Of a stretch of DNA of 64,000 nucleotides, positions 2,999-32,021 are shown in pieces. The notes under the pieces were generated by a model that saw nothing but the letters and a program-made list of their open reading frames with translations, was not told the DNA's origin and did no database searches. Origin of the DNA: Rhodanobacter sp. L36 (GTDB lineage Bacteria; Pseudomonadota; Gammaproteobacteria; Xanthomonadales; Rhodanobacteraceae); contig NZ_LMUV01000003.1 of NCBI RefSeq assembly GCF_009765755.1, positions 162,661 to 226,660 on the forward strand, in the 5' to 3' direction. A program made the translations under genes and the position numbers. How positions within the stretch are numbered: the stretch's first letter is position 1; each line of letters begins with the position of its first letter.

Positions 2999-4690
2999 AT
3001 GAGCGTCGCCGACATGCGGGTCGAACATCCAACAGAACCGCGCTCATCCGAGCAGCGTCCAGAGCAGCAAATGATCGACATCCCCTGGTGGCGTGGAGCC
3101 GTCACCTATCAGATTTATCCGCGCAGCTTCCTGGATACCGACGGTGACGGCGTAGGTGATCTTCCGGGCATCATCGATCGGCTGGACTATGTGGCGAGCC
3201 TCGGCGTCGACGCGATCTGGATCGCGCCGTTCTTCAAATCGCCGATGGCGGATTTCGGTTACGACATTGCCGACTATCGCGATGTCGATCCGTTGTTCGG
3301 GACGCTGGAAGATTTCGATCACCTGCTGGCGAAAGCGCATCGTCTCGGCCTGAAAGTGATGATCGACCAGGTGCTGAGCCATACCTCGATGGAACACGAG
3401 TGGTTTCGGCAGAGCCGCGCCAGCCGCGATAATTCCAAGTCCGACTGGTATGTGTGGGCTGACGCACGCGAGGACGGCAGCGCGCCGAACAACTGGCTGT
3501 CGCTGTTCGGTGGTTCGGCCTGGCAATGGGAACCACGTCGCGGCCAGTATTACCTGCACAACTTTCTCGCCGCGCAACCCGACCTCAATTTTCACAATCC
3601 GCAGGTGCAGGCAGCGGCGCTCGACAACGTGCGTTTCTGGCTCGATCGCGGCGTGGACGGCACACGACTGGACGCGATCAACTTCTGTTTCCACGATCAG
3701 CAGCTGCGTGACAACCCGCCCAAGCCGAAGGAAAAACGCACCGGTCGTGGCTTCAGTCCCGACAATCCGTACGCGTTCCAGTACCACTACTACAACAACA
3801 CGCAGCCGGAGAACCTCGCGTTTCTCGCCGAGCTGCGCGCGCTGATGGACGGCTATACGGATGTCGCCGCGCTGGGCGAAATATCCTCGGAAGATTCACT
3901 CGCCACGATGGCCGAATACACCAGCGACCATCGCCTGCACATGGGCTACAGCTTCGAATTGCTCACCGACGATTTCAGCGCCGCGCATATCCGCGACACG
4001 GTGCAGATGCTGGAGTCGAAGATGACCCAGGGCTGGCCGTGCTGGGCGATCTCCAACCACGACGTCGAACGCGTTCTCACGCGCTGGGGCAGGGGAAAAT
4101 CGTCGGCACAACTGGCGAACTTGCTTACCGCGATGGTCTGTTCGCTGCGCGGATCGGTGTGCGTCTACCAGGGCGAAGAGCTCGGGCTCACCGAAGCTGA
4201 CGTGCCTTACGAAGCATTGCAGGATCCGTACGGCATCGCGTTCTGGCCGCAGTTCAAAGGTCGCGACGGTTGCCGCACGCCGATGCCGTGGACCGATGGT
4301 GACCACGCAGGTTTCAGCAACGGCAGGCCGTGGTTGCCGGTGCCGGAGGAACATCGCGCACTGGCGGTCAACGAGCAGGAAGCACAACCGACGTCGGTAT
4401 TGAACGGCTTTCGCACTTTCATGCACTGGCGCAAGGCGCAACCGGCGCTGCGCTGGGGCGATATTCGTTTTGTCGACACCGCCGAACCTGTGCTTGCATT
4501 CACTCGCAGTCTGGACGGCCAAACGGTGTTGGTAATTTTCAACCTGTCGAGCGATTCGGTTGCGATCCTGCTGCCACTGCCGACGGGTTCGCTGCAGATT
4601 CTCGAAGGCCATGGCCTTGCGCAGGGCCAGCGCGATGGCGATCAACTCGTGTTGCCCGCCTATGGCGCATGGTTTGCACAGGTCGGCTGA
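2999..4690 (+). CDS. GH13 alpha-glucosidase
   Basis: Hydrolyses terminal alpha-linked glucose from maltose-type oligosaccharides, probably intracellular because no signal peptide is seen. 563 residues from the chosen ATG at 2999, which follows CGAGGA by a suitable distance; an in-frame ATG at 2924 gives 25 more residues but overlaps the operator-like box. The GH13 regions appear in order: VMIDQVLSHTS (about 120-130), GTRLDAINF with nucleophile Asp225, ALGEISSED with acid/base Glu294, and ISNHDVER with His354 and Asp355. The C-terminal part is a beta domain. Length and order match oligo-1,6/alpha-glucosidases of xanthomonads. It diverges from the receptor, suggesting an uptake-and-hydrolysis unit. 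Exact linkage preference cannot be read from the sequence. Confidence 0.95.
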   Translation: MSVADMRVEHPTEPRSSEQRPEQQMIDIPWWRGAVTYQIYPRSFLDTDGDGVGDLPGIIDRLDYVASLGVDAIWIAPFFKSPMADFGYDIADYRDVDPLFGTLEDFDHLLAKAHRLGLKVMIDQVLSHTSMEHEWFRQSRASRDNSKSDWYVWADAREDGSAPNNWLSLFGGSAWQWEPRRGQYYLHNFLAAQPDLNFHNPQVQAAALDNVRFWLDRGVDGTRLDAINFCFHDQQLRDNPPKPKEKRTGRGFSPDNPYAFQYHYYNNTQPENLAFLAELRALMDGYTDVAALGEISSEDSLATMAEYTSDHRLHMGYSFELLTDDFSAAHIRDTVQMLESKMTQGWPCWAISNHDVERVLTRWGRGKSSAQLANLLTAMVCSLRGSVCVYQGEELGLTEADVPYEALQDPYGIAFWPQFKGRDGCRTPMPWTDGDHAGFSNGRPWLPVPEEHRALAVNEQEAQPTSVLNGFRTFMHWRKAQPALRWGDIRFVDTAEPVLAFTRSLDGQTVLVIFNLSSDSVAILLPLPTGSLQILEGHGLAQGQRDGDQLVLPAYGAWFAQVG

Positions 4691-4708
4691 GCGGAAACTA
4701 TTTCCGCT
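4690..4708. terminator. Hairpin overlapping two convergent stop codons
   Basis: AGCGGAAA (4690-4697), a 3-nt loop, and TTTCCGCT (4701-4708) form a perfect 8-bp stem between the convergent alpha-glucosidase and M28 peptidase genes. It covers both stop codons. There is no long T-run on either side, so termination efficiency is uncertain. Confidence 0.45.
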
Positions 4709-6356
4709 GGCTGCTTGTTGCATCGCGAATGGCGCGGAATTCCGAGTCCTTGCTCCAGTCCGGCCACTCACCGGAATTCGCCAGGTTGCCGCCGAGCGTG
4801 TAGAGCAATTGCAGGTCTCGCGCCATGCCGGTGAACGGCCAGCTGGCCTGCCATTCGTCCGCAGGCTGGTGATAGCGATTGGCCGTGTAGTCGTCATCCG
4901 CCGCTTTGCCGGCTGCGACGCCGCCATCGATCCAGTCGTTGCCGGAACCGAATGAAATCGCCGGCACGCCGCGCTTGGCGAACGAAAAATGATCGGAGCG
5001 AAAGAAACCGCCGGCCTCGGGTTTGGGATCGGCGGAGTACGTCATGCCGTGGGTTTTCGCATCGGCGATCAGGTTGTCCAGCAGGCCGAGCTTTGCGCTG
5101 CCGGCGATGGTGAAGTCGCGCGATGGCCCGTGCGGATCGAGCGCGTCCATGTTGATCACGCCGGCGGTGGTGGCGAGCGGATATAACGGCTTCGAGGCGT
5201 AGTACTCCGAGCCGAGCAGGCCCTTTTCCTCGGCGGTGACATTGAGGAACACGATCGAACGCTGCGGTTTCGGCGCATGCGAAAACGCGCGTGCCAGTTC
5301 GATCAGCGCTGCCGTGCCCGTCGCGTTGTCGACGGCGCCGTTGTAGATGCGATCGCCTTTCGCGTCGGGCTGGCCCACGCCGAGATGATCCCAGTGCGCG
5401 CTGTAGATCACCGTTTCGTCCGGGCGTTTGCTGCCCTCGATGCGGCCGACAATGTTGTGCGTGGTGATGACTTTCGAGTCGACCTTGAAATTCGCTGAAA
5501 GGGTTTCGCCTTGCAGCACAACGGGCGTGAACGCGCGCGTCTGCGCCTGCTTTTTCAACGTGTCGAAATCCAGCCCGGCGTTCCTGAACATCGCCACGGC
5601 GAGATCGCGCTGGATCCAGCCTTCGATCTGTGGATGCACGGACGATGGATGATCGCGCACGATGTCGAACATCGTGTTGGTGTTGGAATTCTTCACCGTT
5701 GCCCAACCGTACGATGCCGGCGCGGTTTCGTGGATGACCAGCATGCCGAGCGCGCCCTGCCGCGCGGCTTCTTCGTACTTGTACGTCCAGCGGCCGTAGT
5801 AGGTCATGGCCTTGCCGCCGAAGTCACCCTTGCCCGTTTCGAAATCGGGATCGTTCACCAGCACCACCGCGATCTTGCCGCGCAGGTTCGCGCCCTTGAA
5901 ATCATCCCAATGTCGCTCGGGCGCCTTGACGCCGTAGCCGACAAACACCAGTGGCGCGTGCGCAACCGCGACGGTGGTCGTGCCGTCCATCGGCGCGCGC
6001 ATCGCGATCTGTTCGCCCTGTTTCAAGGCCATGCGCTTGCCACCCATATCCAGCGAAAGCGAGGGCGTGCCGATGATGTTGCTGCGCAGCAAGGGCACAT
6101 TCTGCGTCCATGCGCGCTTGCCGTTCACAACATCGCCACCGGGTTGCAGGCCGACGGCTTTCCACTGTGACGTGACGTAATCGATGACTTTCGCTTCCGC
6201 CGGCGTCGCCGGCCCGCGTCCTTCGAACGCATCGGAAGAAAGCGTCTTCACCTCTTCCGACAAGTGGTGCGGGTCGATCGTCGGTGCGTTGGAAGTGGCT
6301 GCTGGCGACGCCGAAGAAACGGCAAGGGCGAGGGCGGAAAACATCATGCGTTTCAC
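4698..6356 (-). CDS. Exported M28-family metallopeptidase
   Basis: Zinc aminopeptidase/carboxypeptidase-type enzyme with a PA-like insert, predicted periplasmic or secreted. From GTG 6356 (552 residues) a signal peptide MMFSALALAVSSASPAA is at the extreme N-terminus; an ATG three codons later is an alternative. The co-catalytic zinc ligands are visible in order: His in YSAHWDHLGVG, Asp in GAVDNATGTAAL, the Glu-Glu pair in TAEEKGLLGS, Asp in GVINMDALD, and His in RYHQPADEW. The insert before the catalytic domain (about 110-290) resembles a protease-associated domain. Converges on the alpha-glucosidase and stands about 105 bp downstream of the PepSY gene. Substrate unknown. Confidence 0.9.
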   Translation of the reverse strand: MKRMMFSALALAVSSASPAATSNAPTIDPHHLSEEVKTLSSDAFEGRGPATPAEAKVIDYVTSQWKAVGLQPGGDVVNGKRAWTQNVPLLRSNIIGTPSLSLDMGGKRMALKQGEQIAMRAPMDGTTTVAVAHAPLVFVGYGVKAPERHWDDFKGANLRGKIAVVLVNDPDFETGKGDFGGKAMTYYGRWTYKYEEAARQGALGMLVIHETAPASYGWATVKNSNTNTMFDIVRDHPSSVHPQIEGWIQRDLAVAMFRNAGLDFDTLKKQAQTRAFTPVVLQGETLSANFKVDSKVITTHNIVGRIEGSKRPDETVIYSAHWDHLGVGQPDAKGDRIYNGAVDNATGTAALIELARAFSHAPKPQRSIVFLNVTAEEKGLLGSEYYASKPLYPLATTAGVINMDALDPHGPSRDFTIAGSAKLGLLDNLIADAKTHGMTYSADPKPEAGGFFRSDHFSFAKRGVPAISFGSGNDWIDGGVAAGKAADDDYTANRYHQPADEWQASWPFTGMARDLQLLYTLGGNLANSGEWPDWSKDSEFRAIRDATSSQRK

Positions 6357-22164: not shown

Positions 22165-24504
22165 TTACGGCGATGCAGTCGGCGCGTTGACGAAGGCACG
22201 CCAGGCGATCAGCAGGTTGGTCGCATTCACCGAACCCAGGCCGGTCGCAAAGCTCCAGCCCGGTTGCGCACCGAAGGCTTTGTTGGCATTTGAATAACCG
22301 GTTGGGGATGCATCCGTCGTGGTCAGTCCGACTTGTTGCTGGATACCCGGTCCGAACGGCGCGATCGTGTCGAAGAAATAGCAGTTGCTGGTCGTGAAAG
22401 ATCCCTGCTGCTCGATGCACTCGCTGGAGTTCGATCCACGCGTGACGTTATGGAACACGCAACTACTGGTTCCATTGGCGCCGTTGTCGGCATTGCACGC
22501 AGCGAGGCTAGCGGGTATCGGGCCGGACGCATTGCCGTACTCCTGTGCGGCCAGTGCATAGAGCGTCGGCGCTGCATTGCCCTGATCCGGGTTCAATCCG
22601 CGCGCGGCCAGCCCTTGGTCCATAAGCGCCTGGATGCCCGCGAACATCGGCGTGGACAACGACGTGCCGCCACTTAACGCGGTCGGGGTGCTGAAGTCCG
22701 GCGTGCAGGGGTAGTAGGCCGTGCACGTGATGACCCACGTGTAATCGCCATAGGCGCCGGCGAACAGCGAGACATCAGGGAGATCTCGCGACTGATCCTT
22801 GGCCGCGTTGTAGATCTGCCGCTGCCAGGTCGGCTTGGCGTTGATCGACGAAGGGCCGCCGCTGCCGGATTCCGAGGTCATGTAATAACCGGCTGGATCC
22901 CACTTCAGGTCGTACGTGCAGAATGCAACCGCGCTGCTGAAGCCGGCAGCTTTCGCGGCGACTCCGTTGCCGCAGGAGTCGTTCCATGGAATCTCCGGTA
23001 CATACGACAGGGCCGAGCCGTCGGTGAAATTGGCGTCGGAGGAAAAATACTTGCTGGTGGTGCCGTCGAGAATGTCGGCGAGGTCGGTGCCGCCGACGCC
23101 GGTGACATGCGGCGACGTGGCGAACGAACTGGCGTCGACTGCGGAATCGCCCTGGCTGCCGCTGATGACCAGATGGTTGTAGCTTGCATTGGACCCGCTG
23201 TCGCCGGTGGCCACGAACACCGAGATGCCTTCCGCATCTGCCTGCGCCCACATGAGGTCGATGGCGGTCTTGCTGGCTGCGTCGGTGAAGAACTCGCCGA
23301 AACCATAGCTGGCGCTGATGATGTCCGGTCGCGTGCCGCCGTTGATCAGGTTGTCTGCCGCCAGATACACACCGCCGAAGAAATTGTCGGTCGAGTTGCC
23401 CGACAGGTCGCCGTTGTATTGCGAGCACGTAGCCACCACGAGGTGCGCGCCTGGTGCCATGGCGGTGGCCCATTCCGCATCGAGCAGAGTTTCGCCGTCA
23501 TCGCCCTGGTAATTGAACAGGGCGTCCTGGTCGAAGCAATTGGTGGGGCCGCTTGCCGGCGCCGGGTTGATCTGCGCAAAAGTGCCGCCGTACTGGCCGA
23601 GCTTGAACACGCCCACGAAGTTGTGCCAGTCGTCCGGCACCATGTCGTTGTCTTCCACGACCGCGATGGTGATGCCTTTCCCGGTGATGCCGTTGGCACG
23701 GATTCTCTGGATGCCGTACATCGTGGCAAGGTCGTTCGGCACCAGCCCGCGCGCGCCGTTGGTGAAGTTCACCGCCTGGCTGGTGGGTCTGGCGGCGGTT
23801 GTCGCGTTCTTGCCTGTGGAGAAAAACTTTTTCTTCGTCGCATCCCACTGCGCAATGCTGGACTTCTTGCGAAGCGACACCGGGTGGAAATCCGACAAGC
23901 CCATCACGCCCGCGACGACGGGTTGCAGCGCGGAAGGAACGCTGACATCACTGGCATTGGCCAGATGCTTCGCGCCATCGATGGTGTAGATCGTTTCCTG
24001 CGTATGGAAAGCCTGGTTGATCTGCGCAGCCGTGCCGCTGAAATCGATCTGTGTCTTGTTCGGGTAAACGTTGTTGACCTTGAAGCCCTGCGACGTCAGC
24101 CACGAAGTGACAGCCGCAACATCGCTGTCGACCACGCCGAACGCGGCGCCAAACTGTTCCGGCGTCAGCCACTTCTGGAACTGGGCGGATTTCGGGTTGT
24201 GCTGGTTGGCGATCAGCTGCTCCATCGCGGCCTGGCGCACGGCGCTGGGCTTGAGCACGAGCTGCATGTGATTCATGGCGGTCGAACCGGCGAGCGGCGC
24301 GCCGTTCTTCACCTTGTCAACGATGGCCAGGTGCGTTTTGGCAAGGGGCGCAAGGTCGCTGTTGACCACGGCCTGCGTGACGCGCGGTGCCTCCGACATG
24401 TTGATGCCCGCAAACGTGTTGCCAGCAGATGCCATCGACAGCGCGGGCGTGCCGGCCAGCGCTGCGGCAATGGACGCGCTCAATATGAAATACCGATGTT
24501 TCAT
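22165..24504 (-). CDS. S53 (sedolisin, pro-kumamolisin) serine-carboxyl peptidase
   Basis: Secreted acid protease, 779 residues. A signal peptide (to about 27) precedes an activation pro-domain (about 45-210, with QLVLKPS, WLTPEQFG and AFHTQETIY). The catalytic domain shows the full set: Glu338 and Asp342 in GETLLDAEWA, oxyanion Asp435 in ATGDSGSN, and Ser615 in SGGTSLSTP. The C-terminal calcium-site region is altered: the usual Asp in FHD is Asn (FHNVTRG) and the usual GWD is GWS, a point to check against xanthomonalisins. It follows a paralogue with a 55-bp gap and is probably co-transcribed with it, ending at a clear terminator. Confidence 0.94.
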   Translation of the reverse strand: MKHRYFILSASIAAALAGTPALSMASAGNTFAGINMSEAPRVTQAVVNSDLAPLAKTHLAIVDKVKNGAPLAGSTAMNHMQLVLKPSAVRQAAMEQLIANQHNPKSAQFQKWLTPEQFGAAFGVVDSDVAAVTSWLTSQGFKVNNVYPNKTQIDFSGTAAQINQAFHTQETIYTIDGAKHLANASDVSVPSALQPVVAGVMGLSDFHPVSLRKKSSIAQWDATKKKFFSTGKNATTAARPTSQAVNFTNGARGLVPNDLATMYGIQRIRANGITGKGITIAVVEDNDMVPDDWHNFVGVFKLGQYGGTFAQINPAPASGPTNCFDQDALFNYQGDDGETLLDAEWATAMAPGAHLVVATCSQYNGDLSGNSTDNFFGGVYLAADNLINGGTRPDIISASYGFGEFFTDAASKTAIDLMWAQADAEGISVFVATGDSGSNASYNHLVISGSQGDSAVDASSFATSPHVTGVGGTDLADILDGTTSKYFSSDANFTDGSALSYVPEIPWNDSCGNGVAAKAAGFSSAVAFCTYDLKWDPAGYYMTSESGSGGPSSINAKPTWQRQIYNAAKDQSRDLPDVSLFAGAYGDYTWVITCTAYYPCTPDFSTPTALSGGTSLSTPMFAGIQALMDQGLAARGLNPDQGNAAPTLYALAAQEYGNASGPIPASLAACNADNGANGTSSCVFHNVTRGSNSSECIEQQGSFTTSNCYFFDTIAPFGPGIQQQVGLTTTDASPTGYSNANKAFGAQPGWSFATGLGSVNATNLLIAWRAFVNAPTASP

Positions 24505-24559
24505 GATGAAGCCTCTTGAAATGAGTCGATCGAAGATGGATGGCTAAACGTCAGAGCCT

Positions 24560-26887
24560 TCACTGAGGCGCCGCGGCTGGCGCGTGCACGAAGGCGCGCC
24601 AGGCGATCAGCAGATTGGTGACGTTCACCGAGCCCAGGCCGCTGGCGAAATTCCAGCCGGGACCTGCTCCATAGGCCTTGTTGTTGACGCCGTATGCGGT
24701 GGGCGCCGCATCGGTGGTGGTCAACCCTTCGGTCTCGACGCCATATCCGTAGGGATTCACCGCGCCATAGAAATAGCAGTTGGGCGTGTCTGCTCCGCCA
24801 TCGAAACTCACGCACTGCGTGGAGGTCGAGCCGCGCGTGATGTTGTGGAAGACGCAACTCGATGTGCCGTTGTTGCCGTTGTCGGCACTGCACGCCGCAA
24901 GGCTCGCTGGCACGGCGCCGCTGGCGCCGCCATATTCCTGCTGGGCCAGCGCGTACAGCGTCGGCGCTGCATTGCCCTGGTTCGCCGGCAAACCGCGCAT
25001 GGCGATGCCCTGGTCGATCAATGCCTGGATACCCGCGAACATCGGCGAGGCGAGCGATGAGTTGGTAACCAGGAACGCCGGCGTCGTGAAGTTCGGCGTG
25101 CACTCGTATCCGCCCAGGCAGATGACCATGGCGGTGTTGTTGGCATAGGAGCCGCCGAACAGCGAAACGTCCGGCACATCGCGCGACTGGTCTTTCGGTG
25201 CGTTGTAGACGAGACGCTGCCACGTCGGTTTGCTGTCCACCACGGACGAGCCGCTGCCGCTTGCGATCGACGTGGTGTAGGAGGCGTTGGGATCGCGCCC
25301 CATCAGGAACTGGCAGAAGCCCACCGCGCTGGAAAACCCGTCGGCCTTGGCGACGACGCCGTTACCGCACGAAGCGTTCCACGGAATCTCCGGCACGTAG
25401 CCCAGCGCGGTTCCGTAGTTGGCATTCGGCGTACTGCTGAAGTACTGGCTGGTGGTGCCATCCAGTTCATCCGCAAGATCGGTTCCACCCACCGCCGTGA
25501 CATAAGGTGAGCTTGCGAGCGCGGCGACGGTCTGGCCTGCAGCGTTGATCTGGCCGCCGGTGAAATCCGAATTGCTGCCCGAACCACCCGTGTCCGTAAA
25601 TACCGATATGCCCTCGGCATCGGCCTGTGCGGTCACCACATCGAGCGCGGTCTTGCTGGCGGTGTCGGTCTTGTCTTCGCCGTGGTAATAGCCCGGATAC
25701 GTAACGCTCACGACGTTCGGCCGCTCATCTGCGTTCACCAGATTGGTCAGCGCGATGAAGGTCCCGCCGTAGGTATTGGGGCTCGCCGGATCGAACGTGC
25801 TGGTGTAGTTCGAGCAATAAGCGACTTCGATATGCGCGCCGGGTGCGATCGCCGTGGCCGCTTCCAGATCTTCCGCCGCGGAGAACGATTCGTTCGGCGG
25901 GTCCGACTCCTGGCCGGCGTAACAATTGTTCAGCGTGCCGATCTGCGGCGTGATCTGGCTGAAGCTGCCGCCATAAGAGCCAAGGTTGAACTGGGTGACA
26001 TAGTTGCTCCAGTCGTCGGGCAAAGCGGGTGTGATCTCAACCACTGCGATGGTGATGCCGGTGCCGCTCACGCCGTTCTGGCGAATGCGCGAAATGCCGT
26101 ACATGTTGGCGAGATCGTCGGGCACCAGGCCTCGGGTTCCACGCAGTCCGCCGCTACCAATCGTCATTGCATGCGCTTGTGATGCCGCAGCGCCGGTCAG
26201 GTCGAACCGGTGCGTGGCAGCATTCCACTTTCCGGCGCTGGGCGCGGCGGCTTTAATCGCAGGCGCCTCGCTCAGCCCGACCACGCCGGCGATCACGTCG
26301 TGCAGAGCGACAGGCACGCTGATGTCGCCGTCATTGCCTAGATAGCGTGTGCCGTCCTTGAGTTTGTAGACGGTTTCCTGCGTGTGGAATGCCTGATTGA
26401 CCTGCGCTACGCTGCCGCTGAAATCGATCTGCATCTTGTTCGGGTAGACGCCGCTGACGGTGAAACCCTGCGCGGTGAGCCACGAGGTTATCGCCGCGAC
26501 ATCGCCATCAACGACGCCGTATGAATCACCGAACTGCTGCGGCGTCAGCCACTGGTGAAACTGATTCGATTGGGGATTGTGCTGAGCGGCGATATGCGCT
26601 TCCAGTTCTGCCGTGCGCAGCGGGCTGCGTTTCAGAACCAGTTGGAGGTGTTTCATCGCGGCCGATCCCGACAGCGATGTGCTGGAGAGGGCCTGACCAA
26701 CGACGCGCGAACGCGTTTGCGCAATCGTCGCCAGCTGGCTGTTGCTGACCGTTTGCGTGACACGCGGTGCTTCCTTGATGCCGAGGCTTGCGGAAACAGA
26801 AGCCGTCGCCTGCGCCTGGAGCAGGCCGGGTGCGCCGCTCAGCGCTGCGGCAATGGCCGCGCCGAGAATGAAAGAGTGTTGCTTCAT
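24560..26887 (-). CDS. S53-like paralogue with replaced catalytic residues (likely pseudopeptidase)
   Basis: 775 residues with the same plan as its neighbour: signal peptide to about 26, pro-domain (QLVLKRS, WLTPQQFG, AFHTQETVY) and sedolisin domain. By alignment to the neighbour, Ser336 replaces the catalytic Glu, Gly435 replaces the oxyanion Asp (TGGSGSN for TGDSGSN), and the Ser motif is TNSSLASP rather than GGTSLSTP, although Ser611 and Asp340 remain. Self-activation and proteolysis are therefore unlikely. The reading frame is intact and the cysteines are conserved, so the fold seems selected. A decoy, chaperone or binding role is inference. First gene of a two-gene operon; ATG 26887 chosen because it starts the signal peptide. 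Confidence 0.9.
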   Translation of the reverse strand: MKQHSFILGAAIAAALSGAPGLLQAQATASVSASLGIKEAPRVTQTVSNSQLATIAQTRSRVVGQALSSTSLSGSAAMKHLQLVLKRSPLRTAELEAHIAAQHNPQSNQFHQWLTPQQFGDSYGVVDGDVAAITSWLTAQGFTVSGVYPNKMQIDFSGSVAQVNQAFHTQETVYKLKDGTRYLGNDGDISVPVALHDVIAGVVGLSEAPAIKAAAPSAGKWNAATHRFDLTGAAASQAHAMTIGSGGLRGTRGLVPDDLANMYGISRIRQNGVSGTGITIAVVEITPALPDDWSNYVTQFNLGSYGGSFSQITPQIGTLNNCYAGQESDPPNESFSAAEDLEAATAIAPGAHIEVAYCSNYTSTFDPASPNTYGGTFIALTNLVNADERPNVVSVTYPGYYHGEDKTDTASKTALDVVTAQADAEGISVFTDTGGSGSNSDFTGGQINAAGQTVAALASSPYVTAVGGTDLADELDGTTSQYFSSTPNANYGTALGYVPEIPWNASCGNGVVAKADGFSSAVGFCQFLMGRDPNASYTTSIASGSGSSVVDSKPTWQRLVYNAPKDQSRDVPDVSLFGGSYANNTAMVICLGGYECTPNFTTPAFLVTNSSLASPMFAGIQALIDQGIAMRGLPANQGNAAPTLYALAQQEYGGASGAVPASLAACSADNGNNGTSSCVFHNITRGSTSTQCVSFDGGADTPNCYFYGAVNPYGYGVETEGLTTTDAAPTAYGVNNKAYGAGPGWNFASGLGSVNVTNLLIAWRAFVHAPAAAPQ

Positions 26888-27272
26888 GATGAAACCCCAT
26901 CGAAGTGGAAAAGTGATAACCCTTGTTTCACCTGCGCGAACCATTTGTTCCGGACACACAGCGTCCGCGGTGTCTGCCCGCATGGCACACGCAATCAAGT
27001 TGCCCCCAGGTATCGCTGACGCGTGCCGGATTCCGTTCCGGTCACCCGCCATCCCTATGACGCCTGCAGACTTGTTTCTGCTTGCGGGTCCTCGTCAGAT
27101 AACGATGAAGACCGATGCATTCGAGGAAGCCGTTGCGATCAGGTCGCTGCTTTTTCGAGGCATGGGTCGAGTGTCTGCCTGACGCAACGGCTCATCAATA
27201 GAAAAAGGTGATGCATCTGCTTCTATGATGGAAGTACATCACGCGTCGGGCCCAGCGCGCGCCATGGACGCA
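26888..27272. other. Gene-free stretch upstream of the S53 operon
   Basis: 385 bp without a plausible gene on either strand. It must hold the S53 operon promoter, but I see no convincing -35/-10 pair. Near its right end there is a possible weak terminator for the regulator gene. Confidence 0.5.
27202..27243 (-). terminator. Possible weak terminator after the TrmB-LuxR gene
   Basis: On the minus strand GTGATG and CATCAC arms enclose an inner CTTC/GAAG pairing and are followed by CTTTTTC. The stem is interrupted, so this is tentative. Confidence 0.35.
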
Positions 27273-28667
27273 TCAACGACGGCGCGGCGGTGCCTTCAAC
27301 GGCGGCAGCGCGATCGTCTGCGCAGGTGCAGCCAATCGTTCCGGAAATGCGTCCAGAGCCGCACGCCAACCCAACTGAAAGCGCGTGCGGGTGCCGAAGC
27401 GGCCCATGAGTTCGGCGATACGCCGATTGAGCGTGGCGATCGAGATGCCGGCCTCGTACACGATCGCCTTGTCGTTCAAGCCGGCCGCCAGCAGCGGAAT
27501 CATTTGGGCGGCTGTTTCCGAAACCTGCGTATCCGGCTTGCCGGTTTCCATGGCGCCGGTTCGACTGAATGCGATGGGCGTGGCACGCGCCCAGGTCATT
27601 TCGAAGAGCTCGTAAAGCGCATCGAGCAGGGCAGGTGCCCGCACCAGCAAGGTGGGGCCTCCCTGGTCCTCGACGTTCAGCGGAATGAGGGCGACACGCC
27701 GGTCCACTACCAGCATCTTGATGGGCAAGGTCGGGAAAATTCTTGCCTGTTCGCCTTTCTCCACTTCGGATCGCAGCAACGTCAATGCGCCCGGTAACGC
27801 GATGTAGCCGGCATCGGAAATACTTCTGATGCGCACGCCACGGCGCATTTCCGGCCGATTGACGTCCTTGCGGTACAACCATGGCGGGCGCTGAAAGCCG
27901 AAGATTTCCTCCTGCACCGTCTGCCGCAACTGACCCAGAATCTGTCCAAGCGCCGCGTGGTTCGTGATCACTTCCACGGGTTGTTCCGGCATTCTGGCGC
28001 TGGCCGACTTCGCGGCCTGCTTCTTCAGTTCGGGGATGGTCGACCGCGCGAGTTCGAGCACGACCTGTCGCTGGCCCACGAGTGCTTCGATCGCGAGTTC
28101 CGGGGGCACCGCAATGTAACGTCGCGGACGTTCGGGAGAGTGCGATGCGAGGCCTTTGGATTCGATATCGTCGAGCAGTTGCTGCGCTTTTCGCAGTGAC
28201 AGCGTGAGCGCATCGGCAATCTCCTTCGCCGTCACCATGCCTTGCACGAGCAGCGTGCGATACGTGCGCTCTTCCAGTTCGCCAATGCCGAGCGGTTCCA
28301 GCGGACGCTGGCTCACCGATGCGAGGCGCAGCTTTCCGGACGAGCGCGGTTTGCGTGCGATGAGAGGTTGCTTTTTTCGCAGGCGATCCTGATCGGCAGC
28401 TTTCTCCGCCTTTCGATGCTCGCCAGGATCGACGCCCGAGGCCAGCATCGTGCGAGCCGCGTCACGCTTCTCGCGAGCAAGCTTCAAACCGATATCCGGA
28501 TACGCGCCGAAAGCCAGCCGCTTCTCCCTTCCGCCGAAGCGATACTTCAGCCGCCACAGCTTGCCGCCGCTCGGCGTGACTTCGACATACAAGCCACCGC
28601 CGTCGAAAAGTTTTCGCGCCTTGCTCTCCGGCTTCGCCTTGAGAATCGCTTTGTCCGAAAGTGGCAT
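27273..28667 (-). CDS. Integrase arm-binding domain fused to a TrmB/LuxR-type regulator
   Basis: 464 residues from ATG 28667. Residues 1-88 are the DUF4102 arm-type DNA-binding domain of P4-like tyrosine integrases (LSDKAILKAKP, RKLFDGGGLYVEV, GKLWRLKYRFGGREKRLAFGAYPDIGL). The integrase catalytic domain is absent. After a basic linker (about 90-120) come a TrmB-like winged helix (130-185: LEERTYRTLLVQGMVTAKEIADAL), a middle sensor-like domain (225-370) and a C-terminal LuxR-type HTH (380-437: LLAAGLNDKAIVYEAGIS...RTRFQLG), the architecture of actinobacterial TrmB-LuxR regulators. The frame is continuous. A GTG at 28314-28316 could be the regulator's own start. Upstream of the S53 pair on the same strand; regulation of them is inference. 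Confidence 0.8.
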   Translation of the reverse strand: MPLSDKAILKAKPESKARKLFDGGGLYVEVTPSGGKLWRLKYRFGGREKRLAFGAYPDIGLKLAREKRDAARTMLASGVDPGEHRKAEKAADQDRLRKKQPLIARKPRSSGKLRLASVSQRPLEPLGIGELEERTYRTLLVQGMVTAKEIADALTLSLRKAQQLLDDIESKGLASHSPERPRRYIAVPPELAIEALVGQRQVVLELARSTIPELKKQAAKSASARMPEQPVEVITNHAALGQILGQLRQTVQEEIFGFQRPPWLYRKDVNRPEMRRGVRIRSISDAGYIALPGALTLLRSEVEKGEQARIFPTLPIKMLVVDRRVALIPLNVEDQGGPTLLVRAPALLDALYELFEMTWARATPIAFSRTGAMETGKPDTQVSETAAQMIPLLAAGLNDKAIVYEAGISIATLNRRIAELMGRFGTRTRFQLGWRAALDAFPERLAAPAQTIALPPLKAPPRRR

Positions 28668-28906
28668 GGGTCGTCCGTGGGGGCAGTTTTGATTTGCCGA
28701 TGGTGCCCCCAATGTGCCCCCGCATCAAATGTCGTGGCAACCTCCTCGCAGAGTCGAGTCAGGCGTGACTGGTGGAACGTATTCGCGCCGACCAAGGCAG
28801 CGTATTCAATTAGACGGCTAACTCGATTGTTGCCCCCGCGCGCTGTCAACGGCGCCAGGAACGTTGTCTACTGTGGCCTCAACATGGATTTCGTCAGGGG
28901 TAGCGA

Positions 28907-29611
28907 ATGCACGCACGTGCCTGGAAAGGTGTGATCCATCGATGCGCATGGATCACTGTGGTCATCCTGATCTTGATGCCGGGATAGAGCAGGGCACAAA
29001 GCCAGGTCGTCACCTCCCGCCCGTGTCATTTCGCCGCGCATGCCGTCTCCACCGTTGGGCCTGCCTGTTTGCTGGCCCAAGTCCATGCCGGCGCATTGCC
29101 TCTCGAACCCATGTACTGGCATCTGGACACCTTTGCGGATCCCGCCGCGGCCAACGCTGCGAAGGACGCCCGCAGTGTCGTCGTGGAGGACTACGGCAAG
29201 GTCTGGTTGTTTACCATCGCGGGTAAAGGGCGGCGAGCGAAGGGCACAACCCACGTGGCACGAATCGGTCCGCTTTCCGTAACGTCAGCCGCGGCATTCG
29301 ACGCCGAGTATGTGCACTCGCTGTTCGCACCCGGAACCACGGCACCCGTGCACAAGCACTCCGGACCGGAGGCGTTCTACGCCCTCGAAGGCGATACCTG
29401 CATTGAGATGCCCGACGGTGCTCATGTCACAGAGGACCCGGCAACATCCTGGTGATGCCGGGCGGCGAGCCGATGTTGCTGATGGCTATCGGCAACACGA
29501 CGCGACGCGCTTTTGCTCTTGTGCTTCACGATGCGTCTTTGCCTGCCACCACGCGCGTTACCGGTTGGAAACCTGCAGGCCGCTGCTTGGCTGGCGCGAC
29601 AATGAAATGAA
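28907..29611 (+). pseudogene. Cupin-domain exported protein, disrupted by a stop and a frameshift
   Basis: From ATG 28907 the frame encodes a signal peptide (ITVVILILMPG) and then meets TAG at 28985-28987. Reading on in the same frame gives ACLLAQVHAGALP, GKVWLFTIAGKG and the cupin strand GTTAPVHKHSGPEAFYALEGD. Near 29428 one base is missing (GTC-ACAGAGG), after which the frame that continues the protein is the next one: RGPGNILVMPGGEPMLLMAIGN, FALVLHDASLP, ending at 29611. Two independent lesions make a sequencing error unlikely to explain both. The original was probably a periplasmic small cupin protein. Confidence 0.8.
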
Positions 29612-29682: not shown

Positions 29683-30126
29683 TCATTCCATCGCGTCAAC
29701 GTTCGCCGAGACGCGTTGAAGCAGCGCGAGCAGTGTCTTGACTTCGGCGGCGGACAGTCCGCGCGTCGCCTCCTTGTTTCCTTGTCGCAGCACCTCGCGT
29801 CCCGCGGGAAGTTTTTTTCGCGCGGCATCCGTCAGAGAGATCAGGCTGCTGCGGCGATCATCCGGATGAGTTTCGCGGCGCACGAGTCCGTCGCGCTCAA
29901 GCCGTGCGAGCAACTGGGCCATGCTGGGCTGCTCGACTTTCGCCCAGCGTGCCAAGTCTGCCTGCGACATTTGTTTGCCATCCGCGAGTGCGCTGAGTAC
30001 GGGCAGTTGCGCCGTTGCGAAACCCAACGGACGCAATCGCGCATCGCCCACCCGCGCGAGGCCGCGTGCGATTCGACTGAAATAGTGACCAGGCGTGATC
30101 ATCGGCTGCCAATCATTTGCGGTCAT
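29683..30126 (-). CDS. MarR-family transcriptional regulator
   Basis: 147 residues from ATG 30126; the longer frame to 30273 runs into the divergent gene and was rejected. The winged helix is clear: LPVLSALADGKQMSQADLARW, the recognition helix in VEQPSMAQLLARLERDGLV and the wing RRETHPDDRRSSLISLT, followed by a C-terminal dimerisation helix. It diverges from an FAD-dependent monooxygenase with 64 bp between starts and paired inverted repeats in the gap, consistent with control of that gene and of itself. Confidence 0.92.
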   Translation of the reverse strand: MTANDWQPMITPGHYFSRIARGLARVGDARLRPLGFATAQLPVLSALADGKQMSQADLARWAKVEQPSMAQLLARLERDGLVRRETHPDDRRSSLISLTDAARKKLPAGREVLRQGNKEATRGLSAAEVKTLLALLQRVSANVDAME

Positions 30127-30128
30127 TG

Positions 30129-30170
30129 CATAGCATCCTATGAATTCATGTGTATAGTATAGGTTCCTAT
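30129..30170. promoter_or_regulatory. Paired operator-like inverted repeats (MarR/monooxygenase)
   Basis: The MarR/monooxygenase gap holds CATAG-N4-CTATG (30129-30142) and ATAGG-TT-CCTAT (30159-30170). TATAGT (30153-30158) on the plus strand and TATACT on the minus strand lie between or over them as -10 candidates, so one repressor could block both directions. Confidence 0.5.
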
Positions 30171-30190
30171 GTAAATCGGTGATAGCGGCC

Positions 30191-31336
30191 ATGGCATCTT
30201 TTTCGCGAATCGCAATTGTCGGCGGCGGTCCCGGCGGCCTGATGCTTGCCCGCTTGCTGTTAATGCGCGGCATGAATGCAGCTGTGTTCGAGCGCGATAC
30301 GCATGCCGACGAACGCCCTCAGGGCGGCTCGCTCGATCTTCACGCCGATACCGGACAACGTGCGATGCGCGTGGCCGAGCTGGAAACACAGTTCAGCGCG
30401 GAAGCGCGACCGGAACATCAAGGCGATCGACTTTACGATCAGCACGGCACGCTGTTGTTCGACCGTGACGGCGAGGGCGATGATCGTCCCGAGATCGACC
30501 GCACTGCGCTGCGCCGCATTCTTCTCGATTCGCTTCCACCGGACCTTGTGCGATGGGACAGTCGGATCGAGAGCATCAAACCTCTGGCGAGCGGCGGCCA
30601 TGAAGTAGCCGGTCGCGGATTTGTCGAGCAGTTCGACATCGTCGTCGGCGCTGATGGCGCATGGTCGAATGTTCGACCGCTGGTCTCTGACGCTGCGCCC
30701 AGCTACGGCGGCGTCACACTGGTTGAACTCGGCTTCGACACGCAGCGCCACCCCGCAGTTGATGCGCTGACCGGCAGCGGCAAGATGTTTGCCGTCGGCG
30801 ATAACCGCGCGCTAATCGCACAGCGCAACGGCCTTGGTCACATCCGCGGCTACGCGGGAGTGCGCATGCCTGAGGACGCGTCGCGATATTTGGCGCAGAG
30901 TTCCGTTGAGGATGTGCGCGCGATCATGCTGGAAGCGTTCGCGGCGTGGTCGCCTGAGCTGACTCATCTGATCGAGGTCGGCGACGTGATCGGCATTCGC
31001 CCGATGTACGCGCTCCCGATCGGCCACCACTGGCCAAACCAGCCCCGCCTCACGCTGCTGGGCGATGCGGCACACCTGATGTCGCCATTCAGCGGGGAGG
31101 GCGTGAACCTGGCACTTGCCGATGCCGTCGATCTTGCCGAAGCGCTGAGCTCAGGCGAAGGATGGCCCGCGATCGAGCGTTATGAAGCGATCATGGTCGA
31201 GCGTTCCGCACCCGCTGCAGAAGGTGCGGCAGCGGGCTTGAACGCCGCGTTTTCGCCTGCGGGTGTCGACAGCGTGCTTGCGCATTATCTGGAGCGGGTT
31301 GCTGTTTCAGGACCAGAGAATCGGCAGGTTTCTTAA
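30191..31336 (+). CDS. FAD-dependent monooxygenase (TetX/PHBH-like)
   Basis: Flavoprotein hydroxylase, 381 residues from ATG 30191. The N-terminal dinucleotide motif IAIVGGGPGGLMLARLL binds FAD; the mid DG motif VVGADGAWSNVR and the second FAD motif LLGDAAHLMSPFSGEGVNLAL are both present, as in class A monooxygenases. Closest in style to the TetX-like proteins that are often paired with MarR or TetR regulators in xanthobacterial and soil genomes. No membrane anchor. Substrate unknown; an aromatic or antibiotic-like compound is inference. Confidence 0.9.
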   Translation: MASFSRIAIVGGGPGGLMLARLLLMRGMNAAVFERDTHADERPQGGSLDLHADTGQRAMRVAELETQFSAEARPEHQGDRLYDQHGTLLFDRDGEGDDRPEIDRTALRRILLDSLPPDLVRWDSRIESIKPLASGGHEVAGRGFVEQFDIVVGADGAWSNVRPLVSDAAPSYGGVTLVELGFDTQRHPAVDALTGSGKMFAVGDNRALIAQRNGLGHIRGYAGVRMPEDASRYLAQSSVEDVRAIMLEAFAAWSPELTHLIEVGDVIGIRPMYALPIGHHWPNQPRLTLLGDAAHLMSPFSGEGVNLALADAVDLAEALSSGEGWPAIERYEAIMVERSAPAAEGAAAGLNAAFSPAGVDSVLAHYLERVAVSGPENRQVS

Positions 31337-31945: not shown

Positions 31946-32021
31946 TGGTGGCCGGGGACGGAATCGAACCGCCGACACGGGGATTTTCAATCCCCTGCTC
32001 TACCAACTGAGCTACCCGGCC
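31946..32021 (-). tRNA. tRNA-Phe (GAA)
   Basis: 76 nt including an encoded CCA. The acceptor stem pairs GGCCGGG with CCCGGCC; the D arm is GCTCAGTTGGTAGAGC; the anticodon stem GGGGA/TCCCC holds the loop TTGAAAA with anticodon GAA at 31986-31988; the T arm contains GGTTCGATTCC. All invariant positions are present, so the gene looks functional. It has its own promoter and terminator. Confidence 0.98.

Follow-up and report, generated by a model that had tools for sequence, protein, structure and literature searches.

A TrmB/LuxR-type regulator headed by an integrase arm-binding domain, with probable cognate repeats before its gene, arose more than once in Rhodanobacteraceae

How did a gene come to begin like a tyrosine integrase and to continue as a transcription regulator, and is its integrase part still in use? 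The locus that raises these questions lies in a stretch of 64,000 nucleotides from Rhodanobacter sp. L36 (NZ_LMUV01000003.1, positions 162,661 to 226,660), which in its entirety we call the window. A preliminary description, made from sequence alone, had proposed one frame of 464 codons with an arm-binding domain at about residues 1-88 and no integrase catalytic domain, followed by a TrmB-like winged helix, a middle domain and a LuxR-type helix-turn-helix (HTH), and had inferred that a rearrangement joined the N-terminus of an integrase to a TrmB/LuxR-type regulator. The frame, the arm domain, the winged helix and the middle domain held, the joining is supported, and the HTH is backed by weaker evidence. 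The 464 codons form a single uninterrupted frame on the minus strand, read from 28667 to 27273. In Pfam scans, residues 3-88 matched the full profile (1-83 of 83) of Arm-DNA-bind_3 (DUF4102, PF13356; E 8.9e-26, 90.3 bits, cut-off 27), so that the outcome that had been named as refuting the proposal, no such match for residues 1-88, did not occur. TrmB (PF01978) matched residues 123-190 (E 2e-11, 44 bits, cut-off 25.6), and no match to Phage_integrase was found in the 464-codon protein. Lacking any match to a core-binding or catalytic domain, the protein is an arm-binding domain joined to a regulator and not an integrase. The joining is not a chance event of this one genome, given that the whole fusion is present with 81% identity in another genome of the family (G004). 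The coordinates of all features are collected in Table 1.

Table 1. Features of the fusion locus in the window (positions counted from the first letter of the window)
Feature	Position	Strand	Basis
Additional GGGGGCA site, ~165 bp before the ATG	28831..28837	-	Motif scan
Arm-type repeat 1, GGGGGCA, ~50 bp before the ATG	28715..28721	-	Motif scan; kept in G004
Arm-type repeat 2, GGGGGCA, 11 bp from repeat 1	28704..28710	-	Motif scan; kept in G004
Inverted arm-type site, close to the start codon	28679..28685	+	Motif scan
Fusion gene: integrase arm-binding domain, TrmB-type winged helix, PLD-like middle domain, LuxR-like HTH	27273..28667	-	Frame; Pfam; 81% identical G004 copy
Arm-DNA-bind_3 (DUF4102) domain, residues 3-88	28404..28661	-	Pfam; phmmer to 3ju0/3jtz; model vs 3jtz; dN/dS 0.12 vs G004
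Linker, residues 89-120, weakly conserved, contains the fusion junction	28308..28403	-	dN/dS 0.52 and 41% amino acid identity vs G004; low pLDDT
TrmB-type winged helix, residues 123-190	28098..28301	-	Pfam; model matches TrmBL2
GGGGGCA within the fusion gene, possibly by chance	28102..28108	+	Motif scan
PLD-like middle domain, residues 191-380	27528..28097	-	Foldseek: TrmBL2/TrmB and phospholipase-D-family structures
LuxR-like HTH, residues 383-432	27372..27521	-	GerE below curated cut-off; conserved residues
GGGGGCA site upstream of the adjacent S53-type gene, ~115 bp from its start	27001..27007	-	Core GGGGCA kept at the aligned G004 position
S53-type secreted protease gene (pro-kumamolisin activation domain), likely target, start MKQHSF	24560..26887	-	Pro-kuma_activ E 7.6e-28 on 24563-26893
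Second S53-type protease gene	22165..24504	-	Pro-kuma_activ E 1.9e-29

The assignment of the individual domains rests on evidence of unequal strength. An AlphaFold2 model of the fusion, built from 17 sequences, has a mean pLDDT of 78 and a pTM of 0.37, so that the placement of the domains in it is unreliable. In Foldseek, the arm fold of the model matched the arm domain of the HPI integrase (PDB 3jtz; see also 3rmp) with a TM-score of 0.93 by target length and 49% identity over 74 columns; the fusions thus share their N-terminal domain with IntSXT/P4-like tyrosine recombinases, from which all eight copies known to us differ in having a regulator instead of the catalytic domain. The linker was modelled with mean pLDDT values of 34 (residues 101-110) and 40 (residues 111-120). 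The regulator part of the model, of moderate confidence, is similar to TrmBL2 with a phospholipase-D-like middle domain, and Foldseek also returned the sugar-binding domain of TrmB; with phmmer, the middle domain gave only a weak match to a cardiolipin hydrolase (E 0.2). For the proposed LuxR-type HTH there is no match above cut-off: residues 383-432 reached 17.3 bits against the GerE profile (cut-off 23.5). A LuxR-like HTH is nevertheless suggested by helices at residues 384-440 of the model, by similarity to proteins annotated as LuxR, and by the stretches LLAAGLNDKAI and RTRFQLGW, in which most residues are invariant among 17 aligned relatives.

We found at least eight full-length fusions, in 6 of 233 genomes of the family, Rhodanobacter and Dyella included; this number is a lower bound, only the best candidates per genome having been scored. 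The carriers are the window genome, G004 (one copy), G041 (two copies, a and b), G018, G016 and G168 (two copies in tandem), and the six copies other than that of G004 are 53-59% identical to the window fusion. Arm-DNA-bind_3 and TrmB were matched in all eight and Phage_integrase in none. An order-wide draw of 398 genomes (E <= 1e-42) listed no full-length fusion outside the genomes already known. The window genome itself also encodes five unfused paralogues of the regulator part, and in the frames of unfused relatives that were inspected no arm domain was seen. When we searched plasmid records with the regulator part, 85 actinobacterial records were returned, 79 of them from Streptomyces; ten of these are 31.7-35.4% identical, and five of the ten are annotated as helix-turn-helix or LuxR proteins. 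Actinobacterial relatives of the kind suggested from the RTRFQLG ending thus exist among plasmid records; these regulators and the unfused Rhodanobacter and Dyella paralogues share with the fusion a TrmB winged helix, a middle domain and a C-terminal HTH. Phage records gave no match to the regulator part. As a side observation, genes that by eye resemble TniB and TniQ are found a few kb upstream of the tandem fusions of G168 (3394-5413 of stretch L070), suggesting a Tn7/Tn5053-type mobile element.

Is the integrase part translated? The frame of the window fusion remains open further upstream, to a TTG at 28712. Because the similarity among all eight fusions starts at MPL or MTL, the ATG at 28667 is the likely start codon rather than this TTG. 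The preliminary description had offered the alternative that translation starts at the GTG at 28314-28316 and that the integrase part is only an untranslated scar. In favour of this alternative, the similarity of unfused relatives begins about where this GTG lies, and the linker is weakly conserved. Against it, the dN/dS of the arm domain is 0.09-0.13 in the five closest fusion pairs, three of which are drawn from the same three sequences; in the same pairs, the linker has values of 0.29-0.58 and the other domains 0.03-0.41 where computable. Among three more distant pairs, arm dN/dS was 0.125 in one and saturated in two. Moreover, the frame is open through the arm domain in all eight copies, and the in-frame replacement of this domain by a LexA DNA-binding domain in one relative (G014, described below) suggests that the N-terminal domain is used. 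The arm domain is under purifying selection as a protein. Because it evolves in this manner, it is not an untranslated scar; this part of the preliminary description is contradicted and we regard a translation start at the GTG as very unlikely.

The arm domain is accompanied by repeats of the kind found before integrase genes. In many arm-related integrases, GGGGGCA repeats at a distance of 10-12 bp from each other precede the gene, with an inverted copy right before the start codon. The window shows this layout too: the direct pair lies at 28715 and 28704, the inverted copy at 28679. Among 32 integrases of the GGGGCA arm class, a direct GGGGCA pair lies within 100 bp in 22, TGCCCC is present in the last 30 bp in 25 (but in only three of seven GGGGCA-type fusions), and five have neither. 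Seven of the eight fusions have a GGGGCA pair no more than 100 bp from the ATG; the sites of G168a have the six-base form GGGGCA and not GGGGGCA. By contrast, none of 25 unfused relatives, nor the G014 copy, has a pair within 400 bp (for the unfused relatives counted back from the start of similarity, their start codons being unsure), and single sites occur upstream of 8 of the 25. Across 100-bp tiles of the window and 14 further loci, a GGGGCA pair occurred in 4 of 3416, and all four are fusion promoters. In the window genome, paired repeats occur at two places, the fusion locus and C8:944275, the latter within a long reading frame with no arm domain nearby. GGGGGCA[AC] is not enriched in this genome (41 occurrences vs 40 of a reversed control pattern), and five of the 41 lie within 1838 bp at the fusion locus, a clustering that none of 200,000 random placements equalled. 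Of note, it was the repeats that had drawn attention to the locus, and the test of this cluster came afterwards. We infer, in the absence of binding data, that the repeats are probable binding sites of the arm domain.

Whether more than the repeats was taken from an integrase is less clear. With the repeats masked, the 160 bp upstream of each fusion were no more similar to the upstream DNA of 80 integrases than was shuffled sequence; because this comparison remained at the shuffled level, integrase upstream DNA beyond the repeats is either no longer recognisable or was never there. No sigma-70-like promoter was found at 26800-29000 (0.5 expected by chance). Capture of an integrase promoter is not shown. 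A separate observation concerns the extent of similarity between the window (14001-40000 compared) and a 20-kb stretch of G004 (L038), which stops at 28728, just upstream of the arm repeats; the similarity at 22165-28728 looks as if operator, regulator and proteases could have moved as one unit.

A sceptical reading of these data is that the arm domain is translated and no longer binds DNA here, the repeats being passive leftovers of captured integrase DNA. A match between arm subtype and motif would indeed be expected at capture even without later use. Against this reading, the upstream DNA besides the repeats has diverged from that of integrases beyond recognition; between the window and G004 the repeats are kept and the bases between them have changed; such repeats are missing from the G014 copy, in which the arm domain has been lost; and an extra site is present before the protease gene, with its core kept in G004. 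Passive leftovers are therefore an unlikely explanation. The reading that we hold to be likely is that a working regulator acquired the 5' end of an integrase gene, that is, the arm domain with its operator repeats and probably a promoter; binding, repression and expression are inferred.

We tabulated 80 distinct integrase arms from 90 loci, leaving out 10 loci whose arm was already represented. GGGGGCA accompanies arms with K41/E48/R50 (30, plus 2 without a motif), GGGGGTA those with K41/E48 and L, V or A at position 50 (19), and GACGGTA those with D41/R48 (19, plus 3 without a motif); the seven arms of other classes show none of the three motifs. Arm class predicts the motif in each of the 68 integrases that have one (12 of the 80 have none), and the best of 10,000 label shuffles agreed in 38. 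Classes and motifs were first noticed on the initial integrases and tabulated afterwards, and the second class (KEL) was extended to admit L, V or A at residue 50 only once the table had been inspected. The 40 loci that were retrieved when the rule had already been noticed comprise 31 with a motif, every one of which agrees, and nine with none of the three. In the model, the relevant positions 29, 41, 48 and 50 belong to the strands at 26-30, 36-44 and 47-55, in the sheet to which DNA reading is ascribed for such domains. It is important to note that the arm classes are largely clades, so that few independent switches lie behind the rule. Well-supported branches provide two independent pairs for D41, each of them concordant; of the two pairs for E29, one is concordant and one shows no motif difference. 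The fusions follow the same relation: seven have K41/E48/R50/E29 and all seven have GGGGCA-type sites, and the remaining fusion, G041a, is of subtype D41/R48/T50 and has three sites of the GACGGTA type, as do integrases of that subtype. All eight fusions thus obey the residue-to-repeat rule. The relation between residues 29, 41, 48 and 50 and the motifs GGGGGCA, GGGGGTA and GACGGTA gives predictions of arm sites for many integrases as well as for the fusions. By eye, four integrases of a fourth class, N41/Q48/T50 (L146, L152, L157 and L172), have TTGGTA- or CTGGTA-like repeats, which would extend the rule.

Did the eight fusions descend from a single joining? A single clade of all eight is rejected by the arm tree (p-AU 0.002) and likewise by the regulator tree (p-AU 0.022; 0.017 without G041a). 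A single origin is thereby rejected, and we conclude that the fusion arose more than once. Smaller groupings were not rejected, namely a clade of the seven fusions without G041a on the arm tree (p-AU 0.152) and a clade of the window, G004, G168a and G168b copies on the regulator tree (p-AU 0.117). The best trees each require four changes, which may hide losses, and well-supported branches alone force at least two changes on the arm tree and one on the regulator tree. We note that the arm trees include the specificity columns. On the arm tree, G041a sits inside the D41 integrase group, and its gene lies 354 bp behind a tRNA-Leu, as in integrases of tRNA-inserted elements; the end of this tRNA has no exact second copy in the 20-kb stretch. 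No C-terminal part of an integrase was detected near fusions (E <= 1e-3) in the window, in L038-L051 or in L070. As a candidate source, an island at the tRNA-Phe of the window (31946-32021) was considered and rejected, the last 12 bases of the tRNA having no exact repeat in the window. Between the fusion and this tRNA, at 29683-31336, we observed by eye genes for a MarR-type regulator and an FAD-dependent monooxygenase on opposite strands; the third-position GC of the monooxygenase frame is 0.675, below the median of 0.75 for 44 window frames.

One relative shows a different DNA-binding domain in the same position. In the G014 copy, the same regulator is headed by LexA_DNA_bind (residues 8-69, E 1.7e-16), and no match to Peptidase_S24 was found in it. 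The LexA domain is followed by 22 residues that match the last helix of the arm domain, a stretch scoring 20.8 bits (best of 1000 shuffled sequences, 9.3; best of 34 regulator parts without the stub, 3.4). Over the LexA domain, its LexA kin are two proteins of G041 (78-80% identical) and one of the window genome (69%), all three with LexA_DNA_bind and Peptidase_S24 and with the palindrome TTCACC-N5-AGGTGAA directly before the start. The same palindrome precedes the ATG of the G014 fusion, its only occurrence in that genome. The G014 copy thus resembles LexA in its DNA-binding domain and palindrome, and differs from it in lacking Peptidase_S24 and in continuing with the arm stub and the TrmB-LuxR regulator. 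Because upstream stretches of at least 16 bases are common to the G014 fusion and the G041 lexA genes, the promoter region seems in this case to have been taken over as well. Arm repeats are absent upstream of the G014 copy. We conclude that G014 acquired a second kind of DNA-binding domain together with the operator of that domain, apparently overlying an earlier capture from an integrase. Downstream of this copy lies a gene for a protein with an autotransporter barrel.

What might these captures have in common? LexA represses its own gene. Integrase genes whose promoter overlaps the attachment region are commonly self-repressed, as shown for IntS of KplE1 and for other E. coli integrases in two of three arrangements; integrases of arrangement OC are not autoregulated, and in KplE1 single arm-site mutations did not relieve repression by IntS (PMC2951348). 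The likeness of the fusions to KplE1 intS, the product of which binds sites overlapping its own promoter (PMC2951348), lies in the sites before the gene; the fusions differ in that only the arm domain is left, they are not recombinases, and repression is inferred. Because the integrase (KplE1 IntS) and LexA genes repress themselves, we read the captures as those of autoregulated genes: in one step, the regulator would have taken the operator and the DNA-binding domain of a self-repressed gene and gained control of its own level. A bolder form of this reading, which we hold to be slightly more likely than not, is that bacteria have a recurrent evolutionary route in which a regulator gene takes over, in one piece, the operator and the DNA-binding domain from the beginning of a self-repressed gene, whether the promoter comes too or not, and the resulting protein is immediately able to bind its promoter and control it. 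On this view, integrases that differ in arm specificity served as donors more than once, and lexA once, always at the N-terminus of one regulator family; the lexA front apparently replaced an integrase front acquired earlier, of which the last helix survives. The bolder reading is weakened because we found no similarity to integrase promoters beyond the repeats. In animals, there are transcription factors made of the DNA-binding domain of a mobile element, a transposase, and a host regulatory protein. The fusions described here differ in being bacterial, in deriving from tyrosine recombinases and in having the cognate operator directly before the gene. In the open-licence literature that we searched, no arm-binding domain fused to a transcription regulator was found, which is weak evidence of absence; the parts are known, and their repeated capture with cognate operators appears to be new within that literature. 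This bacterial counterpart can be traced across its separate origins, the operator being still in place, and so makes the steps of rewiring testable.

The neighbourhood of the fusions points to a possible target. A gene similar to that for the second S53-type protein of the window lies within 2.5 kb downstream on the same strand of six of the eight fusions and of 9 of 27 unfused regulators tested; no such gene lies within 2.5 kb of the two G168 fusions or of the majority of distant relatives. Our working hypothesis is that the regulator family, which in these genomes lies mostly just upstream of genes for secreted S53-type proteases, acts on the protease promoter through the TrmB winged helix and the LuxR-like HTH, perhaps with a ligand of the PLD-like domain as the signal, and that the arm domain would bind the repeats in its own promoter and repress it, like integrases of such a kind. 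In the window lineage, the arm domain may also act at the site before the protease gene; such a site is present only in the window and G004 and is missing from the four other fusions next to an S53 gene.

Two other functions were considered. First, the fusion could bridge its own promoter and that of the protease, with one DNA-binding end on each, and form a loop. Lambda integrase, which bridges arm and core sites, is the model for this rival, and it is supported by the arm sites flanking the gene in the window and by the three predicted DNA-binding modules. Against it, the downstream site is restricted to two of the genomes, and no binding site has been identified for the other modules; we consider looping unlikely. 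Second, the fusion could be a domesticated defence that sits on the arm sites of integrative elements of its own arm class and so keeps these elements silent. For this rival, the arm retains the residues of its class, and L007, one of two integrase-like genes of the window genome that were examined (of three found), belongs to another class, GGGGGTA. Against it, close relatives of the regulator adjoin S53 genes whether fused or not, and G041 carries a GGGGCA-type fusion together with an integrase with a 62%-identical arm, making defence very unlikely. As a last observation, made by eye, the first S53-type protein has TNSSLASP around the likely nucleophile where its neighbour has GGTSLSTP, and may perhaps be altered in activity.
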